NCBI GenBank assembly: GCA_001650895.1
Contig: LXYH01000009.1
Span: 1-49,350, forward strand
Length of the DNA: 49,350 nt
Source: Rhodobacteraceae bacterium EhC02
GTDB lineage: Bacteria; Pseudomonadota; Alphaproteobacteria; Rhodobacterales; Rhodobacteraceae
Direction: 5' to 3'
Made by a program: the position numbers and the translations under genes. Of the stretch, positions 1 through 9,590 are shown piece by piece (positions within the stretch are counted from its first letter, which is position 1; the number at the start of each line of letters is the position of its first letter). Below the pieces are notes generated by a model, which did not search any database, was not told the DNA's origin, and was given only the letters and a program-made list of their open reading frames with translations.

Positions 1-53
1 TGAAGGCTCCTGCGAGGATTATTTCCCGCATCTCTCCTGAGGGTACTGCCGGA

Positions 54-197
54 CTAATCCGAACCTGTCTCTGCTTGGACAATGACGTTTCCGCACACCA
101 CGCAAACGGGCCTCAGGTTGTCGAGGCTCTCGTGGTAACCGTGATTATTATAGTGATCGACGAATACGTCGATTTGTTGGGACCGGATGGTGCGACA
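54..197 (-). pseudogene. IS3-family transposase C-terminal remnant
   Basis: Read on the minus strand, this short open stretch encodes QQIDVFVDHYNNHGYHESLD followed by NLRP. That resembles the end of the integrase core of IS3-family OrfB proteins, which typically read FVEHYNHxRYHESLNNLTP. The frame is closed upstream by a TAG at 198-200 and ends at a TAG at 54-56. No start codon and no DDE residues remain, so it is a dead fragment. The following 198-375 stretch shows no gene I can recognise and is probably more decayed mobile DNA. The family call rests on one motif. Confidence 0.6.
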
Positions 198-375: not shown

Positions 376-470
376 GGTGCTGTCAGACGAATTCGAACCA
401 GTCTCAGCTTGGACAGTGGCACTGCCCCTTATGCCGCGCCGAGACCGCGCCACTCGGCCAGAGCGGCGGC
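376..470 (-). mobile_element. IS6-family element remnant, 3' end only
   Basis: About 95 bp closely match the left end of the complete IS6-type element at 6155. The match includes the terminal sequence GTGTCAGACGAATTCGAACC and the last codons of the transposase (minus strand, ending LAEWRGLGAA and a TAA stop). The match stops at about 470, so only the terminal inverted repeat and C-terminal tail survive. Orientation is the same as in the complete copy. Scattered substitutions (for example cagtctcagctt against cagcctcaactt) show a related copy that diverged rather than a recent duplicate. Confidence 0.8.
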
Positions 471-518
471 CCGAACCGATGCCCTCGCCCGCATCATGGT
501 TCAGGCCATTCTCAAGGC

Positions 519-962
519 TCAGGTTCCCGGCCGGAAGGTCGCGCGCGTCAGCAAGGTCACGCCAGCCTCTTCGGCGGTATCGTAATAGGTGAACCCGGTG
601 CGGTTGGCCCGGCGGCCTTTCATCTTGACGGGAATGCCCGCGCTGGCCTCTGCCGCGTCGGCGTCGGGCACTTCAAAGCCAAGGTGGAACACGCCCTCAC
701 CCTTGGCATCCAGATGCAGCCGCTGCGGGCTGGGGTTGTGGTCGGGCTGGCAGAGTTGCAACTGGATATCGGGCAGGTTGCAGATGCGGTATTGCATGGA
801 CATGAAGCCTTCGGTGCTGGGCACCTGCAATTCCTCGTATTCGGTCAGCGGCGGATAGGCGACCCAAGGGCCGATGCCGATGGATTCGTAATATCTTTGG
901 GTCGCGTCGATATCATGCACGACGATGCAGATGTGATGCAGCTTGGAGAATACAGGGTTCAT
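519..962 (-). CDS. VOC family protein (glyoxalase/dioxygenase fold)
   Basis: A 147-residue protein of the vicinal oxygen chelate superfamily. The start MNPVFSKLHHICIVVHDID gives the usual first strand with a metal-ligand-type His near residues 9-10. A YYESIGIGPW helix-loop follows, and the second half repeats the pattern with GVFHLGFEVPD. VOC enzymes use a divalent metal to act on vicinal-oxygen substrates (lactoylglutathione lyase, methylmalonyl-CoA epimerase, dioxygenases); the reaction here cannot be assigned. The ATG at 960-962 was chosen because GGGAG lies just upstream. The frame stays open further upstream only as an overlap with the SDR gene. It is the last gene of the minus-strand operon, 5 nt after the SDR stop. 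Confidence 0.85.
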   Translation of the reverse strand: MNPVFSKLHHICIVVHDIDATQRYYESIGIGPWVAYPPLTEYEELQVPSTEGFMSMQYRICNLPDIQLQLCQPDHNPSPQRLHLDAKGEGVFHLGFEVPDADAAEASAGIPVKMKGRRANRTGFTYYDTAEEAGVTLLTRATFRPGT

Positions 963-967
963 ACCGA

Positions 968-1741
968 TCACTCCCTGACAGGAACGGTGTAATTCAGAAT
1001 GCGGCGCCCGCCATCGGGATAGATCGTCTCGCCGGTGATATAGGATGCATCGTCCGAGGCCAGGAAAGCCACCACACCCGCGACCTCTTCCGGCTCGCCC
1101 AAACGGCCAAGCGGCGTGCGGGCAAGGATGGCGTTCATGCCTGCGCGCTCGGTGAAGGCACCCTTGATGATCTCGGTCGCTATGGTGCCGGGGCCAACCC
1201 CACAAACACGGATGCCGTGGGGCGCGAAGGCTACGGCAGCGGTCGATGTGACCTGGTTCATCCCACCCTTGGAAATCGCATAGGTTGCCACATTGGGGTT
1301 CGCCAGCCCCGAGTTGATCGAGGACATGTTGATGATCACGCCGCCCTCGCCCTGGGCGATCATCGCCCGCGCTGCGGCCTGTGTGCCAAGGAATGCCCCC
1401 TTCAGGTTCACCCCCATCACACGGTCGAAGGTATCCGGCGACACGTCCAGAAAATCCATCACTGGGGCGATGCCTGCGTTGTTCACCATCACGTCGATCC
1501 GGCCAAAGGCCGAAACCGCCGCCGCGACCAGCGCATCGACCTGATCCTTGTCAGCCACATCGGTGACCACGGCCAAAACCGTCTCTGGCGTGCCGATCTC
1601 GGCTGCGGTGGCGTGCAGCCGGTCGGCGTTCACGTCCGCAATGACAACTTTTGCCCCTTCAGAGAGAAAGCGCACGGCGGTTGCCCGTCCGATGCCCTGC
1701 GCTCCGCCCGTGATGACGATGACCTTGCCGGAAAACCTCAT
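968..1741 (-). CDS. SDR family NAD(P)-dependent oxidoreductase
   Basis: A 257-residue classical short-chain dehydrogenase. It has the cofactor motif TGGAQGIG at 11-18, NNAG at 87-90, catalytic Ser141, and Tyr154/Lys158 in YAISK. The C-terminal SYITGETIYPDGG is typical of the FabG-like branch. Asp37 after the second strand (VVIADVNAD) suggests NAD(H) preference. It lies 11 nt downstream of the FAD oxidoreductase and 5 nt before the VOC gene, so it is almost certainly cotranscribed. In this setting it probably reduces or oxidises an aldehyde, ketone or alcohol made by the decarboxylase step; the substrate is not readable from sequence. Confidence 0.92.
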   Translation of the reverse strand: MRFSGKVIVITGGAQGIGRATAVRFLSEGAKVVIADVNADRLHATAAEIGTPETVLAVVTDVADKDQVDALVAAAVSAFGRIDVMVNNAGIAPVMDFLDVSPDTFDRVMGVNLKGAFLGTQAAARAMIAQGEGGVIINMSSINSGLANPNVATYAISKGGMNQVTSTAAVAFAPHGIRVCGVGPGTIATEIIKGAFTERAGMNAILARTPLGRLGEPEEVAGVVAFLASDDASYITGETIYPDGGRRILNYTVPVRE

Positions 1742-1752
1742 GTCCGTCTCCT

Positions 1753-2916
1753 TCAGTAGACAATGCTTTCGGGCAACGGCGTGCCCAATCGGATTCTGTG
1801 ATAGCCCAGTGGCGTCAGATCAAGGCTGACAAAGCCGCCGTGCAGGATGGTTTCTGCCACGCCCCGCCCGGCGGCGGGCGCGTGCATGACACCATGACCC
1901 GAAAACCCGGTGGACAACACAAGGTTCGTGATTTCATCATGCCGACCCACCACGCCGTTATGATCAAGGGCGTTAACCTCATAATGCCCGGCCCAAGCGC
2001 GATCCAGGCGCAGCTCCTCCATCGCCGGAATGCGGGTGGCCAAGGCGGGCCAGAACACCTCCTGCATCAATGCGTGATGCGGCTCAAAATCACCCGTGGC
2101 GTCGGGGTCGCTATCTGCAGGGGGCTGGATACCACCGATAAAGCCTTCACCTTCGGCGCGGATCCAGATGCCGGAACTGTCAAACAGCATGGGAAAGTTG
2201 GCCGCCTTCAGGGGCGCGCGGAAACTGAACACGCTGCGTTTGCGCGGGCTGACAGGCAGCGGTTGGTCAAGTTTGGCCATCAGCGCGCCCGAGGCGGCAC
2301 CCGCCGCCATGACACACCAGTCGCAGGGCAAACCATGACCGTCTGCCAGACGCACGGTCCGGATGCGGTCGCCCGCTACATCAAACCCCGTGACCTCGCC
2401 CGAAAGATAGCGCACGCCCAGATCCCTGGCCGCCCCGCGCACCAGCGACAGCAGGGACCAGGCGTCGAACCAGCCTTCGCCAGTGGCGCCGAAGGTGCCG
2501 ATCCCCACCCCCTCCGTCGAGATATAGGGGAAGCGATGCGCGATTTCGTCCGGGGTCAGGGCAATCACATCGGCCCCTTCCCCGCGCTGCATCGCGGCCC
2601 CTGCCCGGCTGTCGGCAACTGTGTCCGGGCCACCAAGGATAAGATAGCCGTTTTCGACATAGCCGATGTCAGCAGCCGGCCCGAAAACCTGCTTTATCCG
2701 GCGGAAGAAATCCACGCTGAAAAGGCTCATGTGGATGTTCACCGGCGTGCCGAACTGGGTGCGGATCGCGGCAGCCGACAGGGCGGTGGAGCAGAACCGA
2801 TAGGTCAGATCCTTTTCGACCACGGTAATATCTCCGGCGAAGCCTTGGCGACGCAGGAACCATGCGGCAAAACTGCCCATGATTGCCCCGCCGACAATGA
2901 CGATCTTTTCGCTCAT
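1753..2916 (-). CDS. FAD-dependent oxidoreductase, DAO family
   Basis: A 387-residue flavoprotein. It opens with a Rossmann dinucleotide-binding segment (KIVIVGGAIMGS, a variant GxGxxG around residues 9-14) and an acidic strand end (VVEKD). The C-terminal STGFSGHGVMHAPAAGR is typical of D-amino-acid oxidase, sarcosine oxidase and glycine oxidase relatives, which oxidise C-N bonds of amino acids or amines. The ATG at 2914-2916 overlaps the TGA of the upstream 43-codon ORF (ATGA), which indicates translational coupling. The frame could extend further upstream, but the Rossmann start fits this ATG. With the adjacent 2-oxoacid-decarboxylase-like subunits it may supply a 2-oxo acid from an amino acid; that is inference. 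Confidence 0.88.
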   Translation of the reverse strand: MSEKIVIVGGAIMGSFAAWFLRRQGFAGDITVVEKDLTYRFCSTALSAAAIRTQFGTPVNIHMSLFSVDFFRRIKQVFGPAADIGYVENGYLILGGPDTVADSRAGAAMQRGEGADVIALTPDEIAHRFPYISTEGVGIGTFGATGEGWFDAWSLLSLVRGAARDLGVRYLSGEVTGFDVAGDRIRTVRLADGHGLPCDWCVMAAGAASGALMAKLDQPLPVSPRKRSVFSFRAPLKAANFPMLFDSSGIWIRAEGEGFIGGIQPPADSDPDATGDFEPHHALMQEVFWPALATRIPAMEELRLDRAWAGHYEVNALDHNGVVGRHDEITNLVLSTGFSGHGVMHAPAAGRGVAETILHGGFVSLDLTPLGYHRIRLGTPLPESIVY

Positions 2917-3044
2917 CCCCTCAACGCATCGTGATGGGATCGAGCGCGGCAAGCGGCCAAGCCTTGGCCTTGCAGGGAGCGGACAACGCGAAAGAGGCTT
3001 TTTCCCAACAGCTCGCCCTCAACCATGTTGTTGATCCATTCCAT
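2913..3044 (-). CDS. small hypothetical protein, 43 aa
   Basis: A 43-codon ORF fills most of the gap between the decarboxylase beta subunit and the FAD oxidoreductase. It starts MEWINNMVEGELLGKSLFRV and ends in a basic, His-containing tail (RARSHHDALRG). AGGGG precedes the ATG by about 6 nt, and its TGA overlaps the ATG of the FAD gene as ATGA. These two features argue for real translation, either as a small subunit or as a coupling leader peptide. I recognise no family. No membrane segment or cysteine pair suggests a cofactor site. Confidence 0.5.
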   Translation of the reverse strand: MEWINNMVEGELLGKSLFRVVRSLQGQGLAACRARSHHDALRG

Positions 3045-3059
3045 CCCGCGCCCCTGATC

Positions 3060-3656
3060 TCAGCAGGTGCCAAGCCCAAGATGGGCGCGAAAGCGGTTCT
3101 TGATGAACACCGCATCGCGGGGCGGCAGGGATCGCGGCAGGTTCTCGGCCTTGATCTTCAGCACGAACAGGCGTGGGCCGGTCGCGGATTCGCCCAAGCG
3201 TTTGACCAGATCATCCACCTCAGCAAGGGTGCGGCACTCGCCGGTTTCGGCAAAGCCCGCCGCCTCGGCTATCTTGTGCAGTGCAATGCCGCGCCCGGTA
3301 TGACTGGTCTGCATTCCGGTTTCGCCGAAATGCTGGTTGTCCAATACGATAATGTCCAGATTTCGCGGCGCGGCCACCGCAATCGTCGCCATCGACCCGA
3401 AAGCCATCAGCATCTCGCCATCGCCAGTGATGACCATCACGCGCTTGTCCGGTTGCGCCTGCGCCAGTCCCAGCCCGGTCAAGGCGGCCCCGCCCATCGC
3501 GCCCCAAAGGTAATAGTTGTCAGCGGTATCGCCCGCCGCATGTACGTCATAACTGGGCGAGCCAAGGCCCGTCACCACCAAAACCCCATCGCGCGCGGCC
3601 AGAAGCTTGACCACGGCGGCGCGCCGATCCATCGCCGTATCCATCCCGCCTACCAT
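3060..3656 (-). CDS. thiamine-diphosphate decarboxylase, beta subunit (C-terminal TPP domain)
   Basis: A 198-residue protein matching the pyrophosphate-binding domain of ThDP enzymes, in the split-subunit layout of sulfopyruvate decarboxylase ComE and phosphonopyruvate-decarboxylase-like proteins. The Mg/ThDP motif is visible as GDGE at 78-81 with the distal Asn-containing DNQHFGETG starting at 106. Its start overlaps the end of the alpha subunit gene by 7 nt, so the two are coupled and probably form one active site at their interface. Expected chemistry is non-oxidative decarboxylation of a 2-oxo acid to an aldehyde. The true substrate (sulfopyruvate, phosphonopyruvate or another) cannot be told. 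Confidence 0.88.
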   Translation of the reverse strand: MVGGMDTAMDRRAAVVKLLAARDGVLVVTGLGSPSYDVHAAGDTADNYYLWGAMGGAALTGLGLAQAQPDKRVMVITGDGEMLMAFGSMATIAVAAPRNLDIIVLDNQHFGETGMQTSHTGRGIALHKIAEAAGFAETGECRTLAEVDDLVKRLGESATGPRLFVLKIKAENLPRSLPPRDAVFIKNRFRAHLGLGTC

Positions 3657-4204
3657 TTCTTTTTGTCCAGAAGCCGTTGCCCGATCAGAACCGCGATTTG
3701 CTGATCGGCATCAAATGCCATAACAGCCGCCTGCGAGACGATCTCCACCAGATCTTCGCCAGTTTCGGCGCGCATGACAGTGACGCCGATGGCTTTCAGC
3801 GAGGCCTCGGTGGCCTGTCCTATGGGCACTTGCCACGGGTTGAACTCTGCCCATTCGCCGCGCATCGTTACCAGCATCAGCAAGGGCGTGCGGGTTTGTA
3901 CCGGCAGTGACAGCATGTTGATGCAATTGCCCACGCCCGACGACTGCATCAGCACGACGGAACGCTGACCGCCCAGCCATGCGCCGGTGGCAATGGCGAT
4001 GCCTTCCTCTTCGGTGGTCAGCACATTGGTCTTGATCTCGGGGTCGGCGTTGAACAGCCGGATCAGTGTGGAATGCCCGGCATCGGGCACATAGGACATC
4101 TGATGGATGCCGGCCGCCTTCAGCACGTCAAACAGTTCAAGCGGCCAGTCCTGGGCCAGATCACGGGGCTTGTCCCCTGACGATATCGTTTCGGCGACTG
4201 TCAT
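3650..4204 (-). CDS. thiamine-diphosphate decarboxylase, alpha subunit (N-terminal PYR domain)
   Basis: A 184-residue partner carrying the pyrimidine-binding domain. YVPDAGHSTLIRLF is followed by TTEEEGIAIATGAWLGG, whose glutamates at 65-67 include the residue expected to activate the ThDP aminopyrimidine. QSSGVGNCINML follows. The length fits ComD-type alpha subunits, where one ThDP enzyme is split into two genes. It is the first gene of the operon and starts 100 bp from the divergent LysR gene, which probably controls it. The downstream beta gene overlaps by 7 nt. Confidence 0.88.
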   Translation of the reverse strand: MTVAETISSGDKPRDLAQDWPLELFDVLKAAGIHQMSYVPDAGHSTLIRLFNADPEIKTNVLTTEEEGIAIATGAWLGGQRSVVLMQSSGVGNCINMLSLPVQTRTPLLMLVTMRGEWAEFNPWQVPIGQATEASLKAIGVTVMRAETGEDLVEIVSQAAVMAFDADQQIAVLIGQRLLDKKKW

Positions 4205-4304
4205 TGCACGTCTCCCGGTGCCGCAGGTTTGGCCCTCTATAGCCTTATCAAGCCGTGCTTAGGTCGGCCCTTTTTGTAGAACAGATATAACGATATTGTA
4301 TAGC
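4205..4304. promoter_or_regulatory. divergent promoter region, decarboxylase operon / lysR
   Basis: A 100-bp spacer separates the divergent alpha-subunit and lysR starts, the usual layout for a LysR regulator and its target operon. The stretch from 4285 to 4303 is AT-rich in an otherwise GC-rich sequence. It contains ACGATATTGT at 4290-4299, an 8-of-10 dyad ending 5 nt before the lysR ATG. There is no Shine-Dalgarno in front of that ATG, so lysR may be translated from a short or leaderless transcript. The operator assignment is inference. Confidence 0.45.
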
Positions 4305-5228
4305 ATGGAACTTTCACAGCTTCGCACCCTGATTCATGTCGCCGAACTGGGCAGCCTGTCCAAGGCGGCAGACCGGCTACACATCGCGCAACCCGCTCTG
4401 AGCCGTCCGATCCGCCTGCTGGAGGCGGAACTGGGCGTGCGTCTGCTTGACCGCCATGGGCGCGGCATGACTGTCACCGATCATGGGCAAGAGGTGTTGC
4501 GCCATGCCTTGCGCGTCATGGCCGAGCTTGAGGAAATCCGCGCCTCGGTCAGCGATGAGGATGCGCCCTTGCGCGGCCATGTCTCGATCGGGATGCCGCC
4601 CACGGTGGCTGACATCCTGTCCGAACCGCTTGTCGCCGCCTTCCGAGAGACACATCCCGATGCGACGTTGCGCATTGTCAGCGCCTATTCCAGCTACCTG
4701 ATGGATTGGATGCACCGCGGCGAAATTGACGCGGCCATCCTTTATGATCCGAAATCCGCGCGCACATTGCGGGTGCAGCCTCTGCTGGAAGAGGTGCTTT
4801 TCCTAATCGGTCCTCCCGGTTCCGGCCTGTCGCAGGACGTTCCAGTAGATTTCAGAGAACTGGACGGCGTGCAGCTCCTGTTGCCCAGCAAAGGCCATGG
4901 CCTGCGCGCAATCCTTGATAAATGCGCAGAGCAGTGCGACTTCGCCCTGAGTGTTCCGGTCGAAGCGGACAGCTATTCCACGCTGAAATCTTTGGTGCGC
5001 GCCGGGCATGGATCGACCATCCTGCCCAAGGCCCCGATCCACCGCGATCTGGCGGCAGGAGAGCTCTGCGCTGCGCCCTTGCACAACCCGGTTCCCATGC
5101 GGCGGCTGATCCTGTCTTTACCGGCAGACCGCCCCGTTTCCCGATTGGCGCGGTTTGCCGGACAGATCATCGCGTCGAATGTGGCGGGGATGGTTGAAAA
5201 GGGGGTTTGGCCGGGGAGGCTAGGCTGA
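4305..5228 (+). CDS. LysR-family transcriptional regulator
   Basis: A 307-residue LTTR. The N-terminal winged helix-turn-helix reads MELSQLRTLIHVAELGSLSK and continues AADRLHIAQPALSRPIRLLEAELGVRLLDR, with the canonical A-x-x-L-x-x-x-Q-P-A-x-S core. A periplasmic-binding-like effector domain (about 90-300) follows, including GHVSIGMPPTVADIL and LVRAGHGSTILPK. An in-frame TTG lies 9 nt upstream, but the ATG at 4305 gives the standard LTTR start. It is divergent from the decarboxylase operon and is its likely activator, sensing a pathway substrate or intermediate. Confidence 0.93.
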   Translation: MELSQLRTLIHVAELGSLSKAADRLHIAQPALSRPIRLLEAELGVRLLDRHGRGMTVTDHGQEVLRHALRVMAELEEIRASVSDEDAPLRGHVSIGMPPTVADILSEPLVAAFRETHPDATLRIVSAYSSYLMDWMHRGEIDAAILYDPKSARTLRVQPLLEEVLFLIGPPGSGLSQDVPVDFRELDGVQLLLPSKGHGLRAILDKCAEQCDFALSVPVEADSYSTLKSLVRAGHGSTILPKAPIHRDLAAGELCAAPLHNPVPMRRLILSLPADRPVSRLARFAGQIIASNVAGMVEKGVWPGRLG

Positions 5229-5437
5229 TGATATCAAGCAAGATTTTTAGGGGGCTGAACAGGCAGCGTTGGGTCTTCCCGTAAAGCCAGGCGACCGCCG
5301 TACTCGTCTTAGATCGGCTTTGAACGCTCTATCCACCCAGCAAATCGCTTGATCAGCGGCCAAACGCAGGCGATCCTGCTAAAAAGCGGCAAGCTAATTG
5401 GGGCATGTCGGTTGTTAAGAATATGAAAAGGCTGGAA

Positions 5438-6115
5438 ATGGATCTTGATCAGGCAATGCGGGAACGTCGCTCTATTCGTGGATTTTCCGACCGGCCCGTT
5501 TCACGAGAAATGTTGGAAGAAATTATCGCCCTAGCAAACCGCGCCCCATCTTCGATGAACACGCAGCCTTGGCACCTTCACGTCCTGACCGGAGAACCTC
5601 TTGAACAGGTGCGCCGGGGTAATACCGAACGGATGCTGGGCGGTGTACCCCCGAGCCGCGAGATAGAGGATTATGCGGCCTACGAGGGCGAGCATCGCAA
5701 ACGGCAAATCGACATTGCCGTGCAATTGTTCGAAGCCATGGGGATCGAACGTCACGATGCAGAACGCAGGCAAGACTGGGTTATGCGCGGGTTTCGTCAA
5801 TTTGACGCGCCGGTATCTGTCGTTGTCTGTTTTGACAGGGTCCTTCTGAACAATACAATCGCTCATTTTGACACTGGCGCTATGACTTATGGCTTGGTGC
5901 TGGCCGCATGGAGCCGTGGGCTTGGCGCCGTGATCAACGGTCAGGGCATCATGCAAAGCCCTGTGGTGAGAGAGATCGCGAATATCCCCGAGGATCAGGT
6001 GATACTGACCTGCGTGGCGCTTGGTTGGCCGGATGAAGAGTTCGTAGCTAATTCCGTAATTTCAAGGCGGCGCGCGGTCGACAACGTCACCCGCTTTCTG
6101 GGTTTCGAAAAGTAA
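5438..6115 (+). CDS. nitroreductase family protein
   Basis: A flavin-dependent nitroreductase-fold protein of 225 residues from this start. It shows AMRERRSIRGF near the N terminus (FMN phosphate-binding RRSxR), the ANRAPSSMNTQPW motif, and the C-terminal VILTCVALGWPDEE typical of the family. These proteins use FMN and NAD(P)H to reduce nitro, quinone or enone groups. The ATG at 5438 has AAAAGG about 6 nt upstream; in-frame ATGs at 5405 and 5423 are possible but have poorer ribosome sites. The 209-bp spacer before it shows nothing recognisable. It sits between lysR and the IS6 element and could belong to the same mobile cargo. Confidence 0.87.
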   Translation: MDLDQAMRERRSIRGFSDRPVSREMLEEIIALANRAPSSMNTQPWHLHVLTGEPLEQVRRGNTERMLGGVPPSREIEDYAAYEGEHRKRQIDIAVQLFEAMGIERHDAERRQDWVMRGFRQFDAPVSVVVCFDRVLLNNTIAHFDTGAMTYGLVLAAWSRGLGAVINGQGIMQSPVVREIANIPEDQVILTCVALGWPDEEFVANSVISRRRAVDNVTRFLGFEK

Positions 6116-6154
6116 GAATCTGCCGCAAGGTCTGTTCAAGGCTAGGTTTCAGAT

Positions 6155-6971
6155 GGTGGTGTCAGACGAATTCGAACCAGCCTCAACTTGGACAGTAACA
6201 CTGCCCCTTATGCCGCGCCGAGGCCGCGCCACTCGGCCAAGGCGGCGGCGCGGTTGAACTTGAAATTGTCGCGCGAGTAGAGGTGGCGTTCCTGGTTGAA
6301 GTGGTTGTGAACCGAAGAGTGGACAGCGGCGAATTTCTGCAAACATCGCATCTGTCGAAAGCGTAGCATCGCACGTTCACGTCGTCGAAACGGCAGGTGG
6401 GAGTTCTCCGCCCGATTGTTCAACCAGCGACCCGTTTCCTGCTTCAAGATGTTGCCAACGGCCTTCATAGCCGCTCCATACGACCGGAGCTTATCCGTCA
6501 CCAGCACTTGCGGCTGACCATAACGCTTCATTGATTTTCTGAGGAATTTCAATGCAGCCTTACGATCCCGGCGCCTGGTAACGTAACTTTCCAGTACTTC
6601 GCCTTCGTGGTCCACGGCGCGCCAGAGATAGTGCGTCTCGCCGTTGATCTTCACAAAAACCTCATCCAGATTCCAATGCCAGTTCGACCATGCACGCATT
6701 CGGTTGATCCGGTTTCGCCGGATCTCGGCAGTGAACATCGGACTAATCTGTTCAACCAGAACCGCACGGTCTCGTGGCTGACGTCGATCCCCCGCTCATG
6801 CAGAAGATCCTCGACATTGCGCAACGAAAGCGGGAACCGCACGTACAGCATCACAGCCAGACGGATAATTTCGGGAGAGGTCTTGAAGTACCGGAAGGGG
6901 CTAGGTTTTGTCATCGATGAAGGCTAGCCACTCGCCCTGCCCGTCTCAAGCTGGTTTCTTCTGACAAGACC
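6155..6971 (-). mobile_element. IS6-family insertion sequence (IS26-like), complete ends
   Basis: An 817-bp element bounded by imperfect inverted repeats. The left end starts GGTGGTGTCAGACGAA and the right end, read inward on the minus strand, starts GGTCTTGTCAGAAGAAACC. It contains one transposase gene on the minus strand, broken by a frameshift. Length and terminal sequence fit the IS6 family (IS26 is 820 bp). No matching 8-bp direct repeats flank it. Its right end sits directly on a remnant of another IS6 copy (6972-7085), so it inserted into, or recombined with, that older element. Confidence 0.88.
6208..6914 (-). pseudogene. IS6-family transposase, frameshifted
   Basis: The N-terminal part (6914 downward) reads MTKPSPFRYFKTSPEIIRLA up to SHETVRFWLNR, the helix-turn-helix region. 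The catalytic part continues in another frame from MFTAEIRRNR at 6738 and contains the DDE residues in NLDEVFVKING, LVTDKLRSY and NRAENSHLP. The expected junction NRFGPMFAAEIRR shows that one nucleotide is missing near 6739 (TTAGTCCGATG where TTAGTCCCGATG would keep the frame). No slippery heptamer is present, and IS6 transposases are not known to need frameshifting, so I treat it as inactivated. A sequencing error is the alternative. Confidence 0.85.
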
Positions 6972-7085
6972 CAGGCGGATGATCTCAGGGCTGGTTTTGA
7001 AATACCGAAATGGGCTGCGTTTTTTCATCCGGCGAGGCTATGCAACCGCCATGCCCGTCTCAAGCTGGTTTCCTCTGACAAGACC
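6972..7085 (-). mobile_element. second IS6-family remnant, 5' end only
   Basis: On the minus strand this 114-bp stretch begins GGTCTTGTCAGAGGAAACC, the same terminal repeat as the neighbouring element. It then encodes MKKRSPFRYFKTSPEIIR, parallel to MTKPSPFRYFKTSPEIIR of the complete copy. It is cut off exactly where the complete element starts. Divergence outside the terminal repeat shows that it comes from a different IS6 member rather than a tandem duplication. It marks the former edge of an older insertion. Confidence 0.82.
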
Positions 7086-7256
7086 AGCCTGTGCAGATTC
7101 CGTTGGGTCGATACAGATCTCCACAAATGTAAGTCGACTCCATTCGCAAAACGGACCTGCGGTGACCATCCTGCAGACTTCAGGCTCAAGTTGCTTGTCA
7201 TGTGAAAAAATTCCATTCAGGATTGTGTCGAGCATTCATCTGTCGAGAGAAAACAC

Positions 7257-8501
7257 TTGATCATTCGCCTTTTCGCTGTCTGCCTTCTGTCTCTGCTTCC
7301 CGCGTCGCTTTTTGCCATGGAGTTCACCGTGAAGCGGACCGATATGAGGCCGATCCGCGCGCCGACGATCAGCGTCGCTGCGGTGGGTGAAATCCGTTCC
7401 GGGGATACGGAAAAACTGAAGGCCGCCTTGGCCTCTGTCGACAATAGTGGTGTGAGGGACATTATCTTCACCTTCGACAGCCCTGGCGGATCCCTGATGG
7501 AGAGCATGGAGATGGGCGAGTATATTGCGAGTCTTTCTCCGCTTGTCTCGGCCCAGGTCGGCGGAACCGATCAACCTGGGGCGATCTGCGCCAGCGCTTG
7601 TGTCTATGCCTACTTGGCGGCTGATTACCGCTACATTTCATCTGATGCCCGGATCGGGGTGCACCAGTTCAGGTTTTACACCGACGAGATTGACGGCCAG
7701 CAGGGTGCGGCTCTCGGCCAGCTCATCTCCGGGATGTTGTCGGAGTATATTCGCACCCATCGCGCTCGGCCGGAATTCTTCGAGGCGATATCCGGGGTCG
7801 ATCATGACGACATCATGTGGATTCCGCGCCAACAACTCGAGGATTGGCGTGTCGTAACCAATGCGGTCTATGATGAGCGTGAGTTCTACATCAATCTGAA
7901 CGGGAAGATCGCCTTGAGGATGGAGCAAATTGCCATCACGGGCGACAGTTTCTTGACACTCTTCTGCTCTGAGGGGCGTGTATCCGGTGTCGCAGACCTG
8001 CACGAGCCCGAGTTTGCGGCTTATGGCACCTTCGATCTCACAGTTAATGGCGTGGAATACCCGGTGGACACCTGGGATATCATCGACCGCGACGACGGCC
8101 GCGGACGGATTGTTTTCAACATGCCGTCGAGCGCGGCCCGTGCCGCCATGGCCGCAAGGACCCTGGGAGCGCGGATGGTTGCGCCAAGCAGGTATGTCTT
8201 CTTCGGTTTCGAGCAGACCCTGCGCGCCGGGCTTGTGCCGGAGATGATCCGTGGCTGTCTCAGTGCAGCACCGGCTGCCCGTGGTGCGATGACCGAACTT
8301 CCGGCGACTGATTTCCCCGGGAATGACCTGACCAGCAACGGCATTCGCGATGTTAGCTTTGCACGGTGCAAGGAAATCTGTCTCGAATATGAACAATGCC
8401 GTGCGGTGTCGTATGTCCAGGCGCGTGCCTGGTGCTGGCCCAAGGGCCAGGCCGGCAATCGCAGGTCCGTGCAGGGTGTGATCAGCGCCATCAAGAGATA
8501 G
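7257..8501 (+). CDS. exported ClpP/crotonase-like serine protease family protein with C-terminal PAN-like domain
   Basis: A 414-residue protein with a signal peptide (IRLFAVCLLSLLPASLFA). A ClpP-like domain follows: SPGG oxyanion segment at 75-78, putative nucleophile Ser113 in CASACVYAYLAAD, and His136 in ARIGVHQF. The last 70 residues (DFPGNDLTSNG, FARCKEICLEYEQCRAVSYV, then CWPKG) have the cysteine spacing of PAN/Apple domains, which bind proteins or carbohydrates. The start is a TTG preceded by GAGAG; the first ATG at 7318 would remove the signal peptide. Likely periplasmic. It stands alone in accessory DNA right after IS remnants. Substrate unknown. Confidence 0.75.
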   Translation: MIIRLFAVCLLSLLPASLFAMEFTVKRTDMRPIRAPTISVAAVGEIRSGDTEKLKAALASVDNSGVRDIIFTFDSPGGSLMESMEMGEYIASLSPLVSAQVGGTDQPGAICASACVYAYLAADYRYISSDARIGVHQFRFYTDEIDGQQGAALGQLISGMLSEYIRTHRARPEFFEAISGVDHDDIMWIPRQQLEDWRVVTNAVYDEREFYINLNGKIALRMEQIAITGDSFLTLFCSEGRVSGVADLHEPEFAAYGTFDLTVNGVEYPVDTWDIIDRDDGRGRIVFNMPSSAARAAMAARTLGARMVAPSRYVFFGFEQTLRAGLVPEMIRGCLSAAPAARGAMTELPATDFPGNDLTSNGIRDVSFARCKEICLEYEQCRAVSYVQARAWCWPKGQAGNRRSVQGVISAIKR

Positions 8502-8572
8502 CACGGCGGCACGGCTGACCAACGCCTTGGGTTCCAAAAATCGTTGCAAGCGCAATAGCCGCTTATGGCAAG

Positions 8573-8596
8573 AATACATGAATGCATGCTTGTATT
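8573..8596. promoter_or_regulatory. 24-bp inverted repeat upstream of a small membrane protein gene
   Basis: The sequence from 8573 has AATACA and TGTATT arms around a central ATGCAT palindrome, 21 bp before the GTG start of the next gene. It could be an operator or a short hairpin in the leader. No regulator is encoded next to it, so the role is open. Confidence 0.35.
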
Positions 8597-8617
8597 GCTT
8601 AACTAAAGGATCAGACC

Positions 8618-8935
8618 GTGCCCATATTTTTCGTTCTTATCATTTGTGCTTGGTTCATCTGGGGTGATCCGCCTAAAACTGTCGCCAACTGGTTCTGGGC
8701 CGATGATGCTGCGCCTTGGGAAACGGTTGATGCCTTCTATTATCCAGACCGCTCCAATCTAACACTTTACCAATCAAACAAGGGGTTAGACTCAGTGCAA
8801 GAGTGCCGCAATTGGGTGCGCTCCGCTGCCGCATCTCATGGCGATGCAAACTTAATCCGTGGTGATTATGAATGCGGCGTAGAGGTGGTAGATACGTTTG
8901 TAGGAATATCTGTATATCGGACTACTGTGCGCTAA
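8618..8935 (+). CDS. hypothetical protein with N-terminal membrane segment
   Basis: A 105-residue protein starting at GTG, with AAAGGA about 8 nt upstream. Residues 2-15 (PIFFVLIICAWFIW) are hydrophobic and look like an uncleaved anchor or signal. The rest is soluble and contains two cysteines (QECRNWV and DYECGVEV) that could form a disulfide outside the cytoplasm. I recognise no family. Codon use is AT-richer than in the core genes, in keeping with the accessory region. Confidence 0.6.
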   Translation: MPIFFVLIICAWFIWGDPPKTVANWFWADDAAPWETVDAFYYPDRSNLTLYQSNKGLDSVQECRNWVRSAAASHGDANLIRGDYECGVEVVDTFVGISVYRTTVR

Positions 8936-9037
8936 GTCTCTTACTGGATGGCATGACCATCTTGGGTTAACAAAATATTCTTCCTATTTTATATACATAT
9001 AACCCGCCTATGGGTGCCTAATAAAGGCAACATCAAG

Positions 9038-9304
9038 ATGCCCGGCCCTGACCCTCACGCACTCTGGATAGAGCAATGCGACGGACGCCTTGTGGTGAGT
9101 TTCCAAACCTACTTCTGGACCGGCAACAAAGGAAACCGCAAGGCGCGCGCTGTATCCATCCTGCGCCGCCTGACGCGGGGTGCATGGTGCTGTCGCTGGT
9201 GCGGCGATGACTTGCCCGACTATCTCAGGGCCGATGCACTTTATTGCCGCGAATCCTGTCGTAAGCGCGCTGCTAGGCAACGGCGCAAGGGAACTCGGGC
9301 ATGA
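9038..9304 (+). CDS. small zinc-ribbon-like hypothetical protein
   Basis: An 88-residue basic protein. CCRWCGDDLPDYLRADALYC is followed by RESC, placing C-x2-C and C-x3-C pairs about 14 residues apart, a plausible Cys4 zinc site. A strongly basic tail (RKRAARQRRKGTRA) could bind nucleic acid. AAAGG lies about 10 nt before the chosen ATG; an in-frame GTG at 9014 is the alternative. Together with its place next to the tRNA-Arg boundary, this hints at a DNA-related accessory function, but no family is recognised. Confidence 0.6.
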   Translation: MPGPDPHALWIEQCDGRLVVSFQTYFWTGNKGNRKARAVSILRRLTRGAWCCRWCGDDLPDYLRADALYCRESCRKRAARQRRKGTRA

Positions 9305-9447
9305 TGACCGTCCCAGGGGGGGATTCAAAGCCTGACATGCGGCGCTTCGGGACCGATGGTGGTATCCGGTCAACCATAAACCGTAACAAAAAAGTTTTCT
9401 TAATAGCACTATTGTTCCCGCACGTTCCGAGGCAGTCCACGTAAGGG

Positions 9448-9513
9448 TGGGGGATATGCTGGGGGATGCGAAAAACGCTTTCCCTTCAATTTCAATTACT
9501 TAAGGGGTGTAAG
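9448..9513. other. possible tRNA-associated attachment region
   Basis: Two copies of TGGGGGAT (9448-9455 and 9460-9467) lie 12 bp apart, just beyond the 3' end of the minus-strand tRNA-Arg. Tandem TGGGGGAT-like repeats beside a tRNA 3' end resemble arm sites of tyrosine-integrase elements. The tRNA 3' end faces the accessory DNA of 1-9.4 kb. No integrase gene is present in the window, and no second copy of the tRNA 3' end was found, so this is inference. The rest of 9305-9513 shows no gene. Confidence 0.35.
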
Positions 9514-9590
9514 TGGCGGACTGGGGAGGATTCGAACCCCCGACCCCTTGATTCGTAGTCAAGTACTCTATCCAACTGAGCTACCAGTCC
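9514..9590 (-). tRNA. tRNA-Arg (anticodon ACG)
   Basis: The minus strand folds as a full cloverleaf of 77 nt including an encoded CCA. The acceptor is GGACTGG/CCAGTCC with discriminator G. The D arm begins TAGCTCAGTTGG. The anticodon stem CTTGA/TCAAG encloses CTACGAA, giving ACG. The T arm reads GGTTCGAATCC. ACG (read as ICG after TadA modification) decodes CGU/CGC/CGA. It stands alone at the edge between accessory DNA on its 3' side and core genes on its 5' side. Confidence 0.97.

Follow-up and report, generated by a model that had tools for sequence, protein, structure and literature searches.

The window, 49,350 nucleotides long, is the entire contig C9 of a 60-contig draft assembly of 4.09 Mb. 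It holds an insertion sequence of the IS6 family whose terminus stands directly against a piece of a second IS6 member (Table 1). The left limit of the element, 6155, was set by full-length homologues with the same start, and both ends of 6155-6971 are common to full-length homologues in the genome comparison. The 5′ terminus of the element is GGTCTTGTCAGAAG and the opposite terminus GGTGGTGTCAGACG; both start with GG and carry G at base 7, as the terminal inverted repeats of IS6/IS26 elements do in the relevant part of PMC6807381. The length of 817 bp falls within the 789-880 bp that the family section of PMC7986276 gives, and the transposase is of the IS6 DDE type, with a PF13610 score of 143 bits (cut-off, 27). 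Model NF033587 matched both frame parts (124 and 55 bits), each score alone lying below the cut-off of 125 because the transposase frame is split. The same section of PMC7986276 states that an 8-bp target duplication is generally made on insertion; here TTTCAGAT and CAGGCGGA, the 8 bp on either side, are not the same. Membership is compatible with this, since the source says "generally" and later rearrangement removes such duplications. We conclude that the element is a member of the IS6/IS26 family. As far as table entries in PMC6807381 go, the alphaproteobacterial members placed there with clade III (ISRssp3, 810 bp; ISPpa9, 812 bp; ISRsp9, 818 bp) resemble it in length, IS6 transposase and GG...G7 terminal repeats, but the element here is frameshifted and has no target duplication. 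Because of the broken transposase frame, it is probably non-autonomous now. The first-pass annotation had called it complete, which holds for its two ends but not for its transposase. Its nearest relative in the same genome is a truncated copy (C1:111447-112088, 96% identity).

Table 1. IS6-related features of the window
Feature	Position	Strand	Remarks
IS6-family element	6155..6971	-	817 bp, both ends intact, transposase frame broken
Transposase, N-terminal part, up to the frameshift	6651..6914	-	ORF; NF033587 positions 1-51, 55 bits
Transposase, C-terminal part (DDE domain), other frame	6208..6738	-	ORF; PF13610; NF033587 positions 56-201, 124 bits
5′-terminal 114 bp of a second, divergent IS6 member	6972..7085	-	Outer terminus kept; 78% to the abutting element; 95% / 93% to full-copy ends on C40 / C19
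Junction of the element's terminus with internal sequence of the second member, no spacer	6971..6972	.	No 8-bp target duplication
3′-terminal 98-bp IS6 remnant, same orientation	376..473	-	91% to 6155-6252; other genome copies 88-90%
Further 3′-terminal IS6 remnant, ~65 bp, same orientation	42..106	-	IS6 piece comparison; 43 bp also matched in a separate comparison

There is no spacer between the 5′ terminus of the element and the fragment, which follows in the same orientation and in register with the 5′-terminal 114 bp of the element. The two form a direct repeat of 114 bp with 78% identity and a spacing of exactly 114 bp (6857-6970 and 6971-7084), in which the single C at 6971 can be assigned to the element or to the fragment alike. 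A terminus-to-terminus match of 114 bp is not a product of chance. The fragment has its own outer terminal repeat, with the 5′ terminus GGTCTTGTCAGAGG, and holds a transposase start; its N-terminus, MKKRSPFRYFKTSPEIIRL, corresponds to MTKPSPFRYFKTSPEIIRL in the element. Both the abutment at the exact terminus and the terminal repeat and transposase start common to the two members are thus as the first-pass annotation described them. The fragment matches 12 places in its own genome, counting itself and the abutting element, and none besides itself exceeds 95% identity. The search for a full-length version, which the same annotation had proposed, found near relatives in the full-length copies C40:18031-18845 (95.5% over 110 bp; match C40:18731-18841) and C19:7665-8478 (93.0% over 114 bp; match C19:8364-8478), and a match of 95% within a truncated copy (C1:98235-98344). 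A single element with an internal duplication, named beforehand as the reading that would overturn a junction, is excluded, since the fragment shares 95% and 93% identity with other full copies and 78% with its neighbor. As judged by sequence, what lies at 6971/6972 is two IS6 lineages placed end to end.

Two further remnants of IS6, which the first-pass annotation did not mention any more than the frameshift or the unlike flanks, lie on the other side of the element. Between them, at 107-375, the minus strand seems by eye to hold the end of another transposase type (YHESLDN-like motif). The block 519-6115, with IS6 remnants on both sides, consists of metabolic genes: VOC-like (label by eye) and SDR proteins, an FAD oxidoreductase, two sulfopyruvate-decarboxylase-like subunits, a LysR regulator and a nitroreductase. 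The nitroreductase shares 72-86% identity with proteins from four genomes that belong to the family but to other genera, and six same-genus genomes gave matches of 26-29% only; among the 101 genomes searched, its close relatives are solely outside the genus. That the nitroreductase is close to other genera and distant within its own suggests that the block was horizontally acquired. An IS26-type pseudo-compound transposon consists of two directly oriented, near-identical IS copies that bound a cargo. Beyond the gene block 474-6154 a near-identical second copy is absent; there is only the 98-bp end at 376-473, which has 91% identity with the right-hand copy. That one resident was split by this gene block together with the element is unsupported: the remnant is nearest to the element's own lineage (91%, versus 88% to C40, of the fragment's lineage), and no duplication is seen between AGGAGAAG and AGCCTGTG, the outer flanks.

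On the fragment's side, a ClpP-like gene (7257-8501; label by eye) gave a weak PAN_4 match. It has matches in 26 of the 101 genomes, one of which, besides itself, is strong (43%, G053), and had none when searched against named genome contigs. The DNA of 7086-9531 has matches in seven of the 101 genomes, its own included, and those outside its own genome are all short. Synteny with three same-genus genomes starts near 9500, adjoining tRNA-Arg (9514-9590), and most of the searched sequence before ~9500 had no counterpart within the genus. Neither an ancestral full IS6 copy nor a pre-event locus was found in relatives by the comparisons with the ClpP-like gene, the 7086-9531 DNA and synteny. The stretch 9108-9520, beside tRNA-Arg, has an 87% identical copy in the same genome (G000:C19:14588-14999, L095), whose start coincides with the terminus of an IS6 copy (C19:13774-14588). 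Phage records gave no match to the query; 90 plasmid records did, and 5 of these covered at least 80% of it.

Comparable joins are present elsewhere in the same genome (on C40, a 176-bp 3′ end lies against a full copy) and in relatives. We counted how often the end of a full copy abuts another IS6 piece, taking pieces of at least 30 bp with E ≤1e-4 and a gap of -16 to +20, in samples made up of the best-scoring copies and not of all copies. The first sample comprised 91 stretches, in which there were 92 full copies, and 180 ends had at least 60 bp beyond them; L168, L191 and L207 were without a full copy at the 93% rule, and L208, fetched as seemingly nested, held no full copy and is outside every end count. 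Eighteen ends abutted another IS6 piece, 17 of them in the same orientation, and the piece had kept its outer terminus in 15 (exceptions, L130, L199 and L200). The 17 same-orientation pieces were ~69-87% identical to the abutted copy, one over 15 bp only; the opposite-orientation piece, in L175, was 91% identical, and its nearest relative is the very copy that it abuts. The expected number of abutting ends was 1.9 from the IS6 density of the flanks and 4.7 when full neighbors were counted as targets.

For the second sample, an alignment of eight transposases was searched against named genome contigs and gave 79 loci, most of them labelled as Rhodobacteraceae. Twelve were dropped as lying on contigs seemingly already used and three more for overlap; full copies, 80 in all, were present in 63 of the 64 left and offered 157 usable ends. 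Here 14 ends were abutted, all in the same orientation, and the outer terminus was kept in 13 (exception, L304), against an expectation of 1.3 or 3.5, or of 7.6 (P 0.02) on the strictest density, applied to this sample only, in which the abutting chains themselves were counted within 1.5 kb. Over both main samples 32 of 337 ends, about 1 in 10, were abutted, 31 of the 32 pieces in the same orientation and 28 with the outer terminus kept. The enrichment is thus about twofold to tenfold, as set by the choice of background. A wider sample of 18 out of 20 class-level loci (two overlapping ones dropped) had 23 full copies in 17 loci, L227 being without one, and 46 ends. It yielded three junctions: L210, in the same orientation; L216, with two full copies 20 bp apart, also in the same orientation; and L222, in the opposite one. 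As in L175, the opposite piece in L222 has as its best match the copy that it abuts, and both may be what replicative inversion of the element itself would be expected to leave.

Truncated IS6 ends are stacked head to tail, all in one orientation, in L126, L135, L225 and L244. Contiguous 5′-end pieces of 310, 146 and 305 bp come after a full copy in L126, as do contiguous 3′-end pieces of 490 and 240 bp in L135, and L244 has a row of three similar 5′ ends, each of 73-93 bp. In L191 (the place of L262), positions 1-747 and 741-817 of an IS6 copy are set apart by 216 bp, as by a short insert. The kept pieces averaged 228 bp, shorter than uniform breakpoints predict (p 0.0003); later trimming or an end preference is needed to account for this, and later trimming would suffice.

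Could the junction be an artefact, two repeat copies having been wrongly joined in a 60-contig draft that is rich in IS6 copies? The junction lies inside a contig of 49 kb, the fragment comes from another lineage, and the same type of junction was found in other assemblies, among them the single-contig assembly G051 (L122). We regard an assembly artefact as extremely improbable.

It may also be that the element entered a resident IS6 by simple insertion, the other half of the resident being lost later by an unrelated deletion and the same orientation reflecting replication-strand bias only. An old IS would perhaps be a harmless insertion site, and the remnant at 376-473 is a co-oriented 3′ end; its affinity to the element's lineage and not to that of the fragment argues against its being the missing half. 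Moreover, none of the 168 sampled full copies with both flanks had an 8-bp target duplication, even allowing one mismatch. Duplications of 2-14 bp, scanned in 140 copies with clean termini, did not clearly exceed shuffles at any length (exact matches versus shuffles: 5 versus 2.0 at 3 bp, 1 versus 0.04 at 6 bp). Among the 31 copies that were abutted, at a total of 32 ends, not one was directly flanked by both halves of one resident. The sole copy abutted on both sides, in L269, lies between a 567-bp 5′ piece and a 521-bp 3′ piece, which come from two elements, as their coordinates overlap; they also have different best relatives. With no 8-bp duplication at this locus or in the 168 copies and no resident halves at both sides, simple insertion is rather unlikely.

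The orientation of IS6 copies was compared with that of their neighbors and with GC skew in a set of 40 family stretches, four own-genome stretches and the window, places shared with the first sample, plus 18 class-level loci (90% full-copy rule, pieces of at least 40 bp; the 59-locus count below), and in the second sample. Neighboring IS6 pieces were mostly co-oriented at every distance examined, in 66/72 and 59/63 pairs, respectively, and still in 12/15 and 12/13 pairs when more than 5 kb apart. The transposase strand was G-rich in 46/59 loci of the former set (p 6e-5) and in 33/54 of the latter (20 against, 1 tie; p 0.0014); where skew exceeded 0.03, the counts were 18/21 and 17/19. With 3 kb of flank only, it was G-rich in 56/92 (p 0.03), at class-level loci in 10/15, and on second-sample contigs of more than 200 kb in just 10/17. 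In the window, skew before 9500 is nearly nil (-0.004), and the remaining contig has -0.029, of the expected sign.

Chromosome-wide skew was sampled in two genomes, G051 and G162, G143 (6 matches) being left out; IS6 places are clustered on chromosomes and hence non-independent. In G051, a single contig, the six windows sampled between 0.1 and 1.45 Mb have positive skew and the five between 1.8 and 2.95 Mb have negative skew, and 22/26 IS6 places agree with the sign; 68% of ordinary ORFs in this genome are on the G-rich strand (102/151), and the difference from IS6 is not clear (p 0.10). In G162, 27/29 IS6 places fit two half-circle arms, with which skew in 16 windows mostly agrees (3.15 Mb disagrees, 1.75 Mb is zero). 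In G179, 17/19 places fit two arms drawn from the places alone. These results resemble a published bias in which IS orientation follows the direction of replication (PMC5371812, which cites Gomez et al. 2014 for a bias of IS families); a partial search of the literature found no statement of it for the IS6 family.

A bias of this kind is what simple insertion would need to account for the same orientation of element and fragment, and it bears on a further possibility, that members of this clade home in on IS6 DNA already in place, even on divergent copies, and join it co-oriented. The 31 same-orientation pieces among 32 and their excess over local density would fit such targeting, as would the ~69-87% identity of the 17 co-oriented pieces of the first sample to the copies they abut. 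But neighbors that do not abut are mostly co-oriented too, orientation tracks GC skew, and one of the three class-level junctions is opposite. Moreover, the published targeted reaction, as set out in part of PMC7885326, proceeds only between copies that have a common transposase and are identical at the reacting end. The probability of 31/32 is 0.002 if the chance of the same orientation is 0.77, and 0.18 if it is 0.905. Strand bias thus accounts for part of the same-orientation pattern, possibly all of it. The skew results weaken orientation-specific targeting as the sole cause of the pattern, and we consider such targeting very unlikely. As distant neighbors are co-oriented and orientation follows skew, the same orientation is also weaker evidence for a deletion between direct neighbors.

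We favor, as the probable origin of the junction, IS6-type replicative transposition that involved an older resident IS6 copy in the same orientation. The incoming element, together with other DNA, would have used the resident as the target of copy-in cointegration, or the element, already beside the resident, would have made an adjacent deletion that ended inside it. By either route, the resident's outer end would become joined to an intact IS end, on a single side, and no target duplication would surround the element. That the junctions fall at the exact terminus speaks for transposase action and against ordinary homologous recombination. The exact join, the fragment's separate lineage and retained outer terminus, the missing target duplication and the like arrangement in relatives are direct observations, while the work of a transposase, the sequence of events and the route taken are inferred. 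Intramolecular IS6 events give deletion or inversion according to the pertinent text of PMC7986276; the direct products of IS26 are cointegrates, single copies with a target duplication not being known as such in the part of PMC7885326 that treats them. That 8-bp duplications and flanking resident halves are both missing fits this behavior of IS26 and favors copy-in or adjacent deletion. In keeping with such an origin, abutting ends exceed local IS6 density, nearly all are co-oriented, most retain the outer terminus, and outer ends are stacked in L126 and L135. The two opposite cases (L175 and L222), the merely twofold excess on the strictest background and the shortness of the kept pieces count against it. 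The same orientation may come in part from replication-strand bias, and orientation-specific targeting is not required.

The first-pass annotation had proposed insertion into, or recombination with, a resident copy, followed by deletion of the rest. A divergent resident truncated where the element begins agrees with the first part, but simple insertion is unlikely and ordinary homologous recombination is argued against; deletion of the rest is compatible with copy-in cointegration and with adjacent deletion alike. The locus alone fits each of these routes, and insertion as well as recombination. Either copy-in or adjacent deletion may have taken place here, as no partner junction with the flank CAGGCGGA occurs among the sampled copies and no pre-event locus was found in the relatives compared.

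In losing segments against an intact IS end with no target duplication, the locus resembles IS26 adjacent deletions in resistance islands, as these appear in the portions of PMC13228073 and PMC7986276 that deal with them. The difference is that here the deletion or target end is inside a divergent IS6 copy, among metabolic genes. Targeted conservative cointegrate formation by IS26, IS257 and IS1216 likewise involves two directly oriented IS copies, but in the description available in PMC7885326 these must share a transposase and an identical reacting end, whereas here identity is 78% and the join lies inside one copy.

The IS6 family and its mechanism are already known, and the junction alone is an ordinary scar of IS6 activity, recurring mostly co-oriented in related bacteria; the recurrence of this layout is mildly new. 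A broader claim, which we put forward as distinctly unlikely, is that this IS6 clade joins inside divergent IS6 copies above chance and nearly always co-oriented, leaving stacked outer ends. If true, this would imply an IS6-seeking, orientation-aware step without the sequence identity that the published targeted reaction needs. On complete genomes, the abutting rate of about 1 in 10 and the link to skew could separate replication-strand bias from IS-seeking in co-oriented IS6 clusters.
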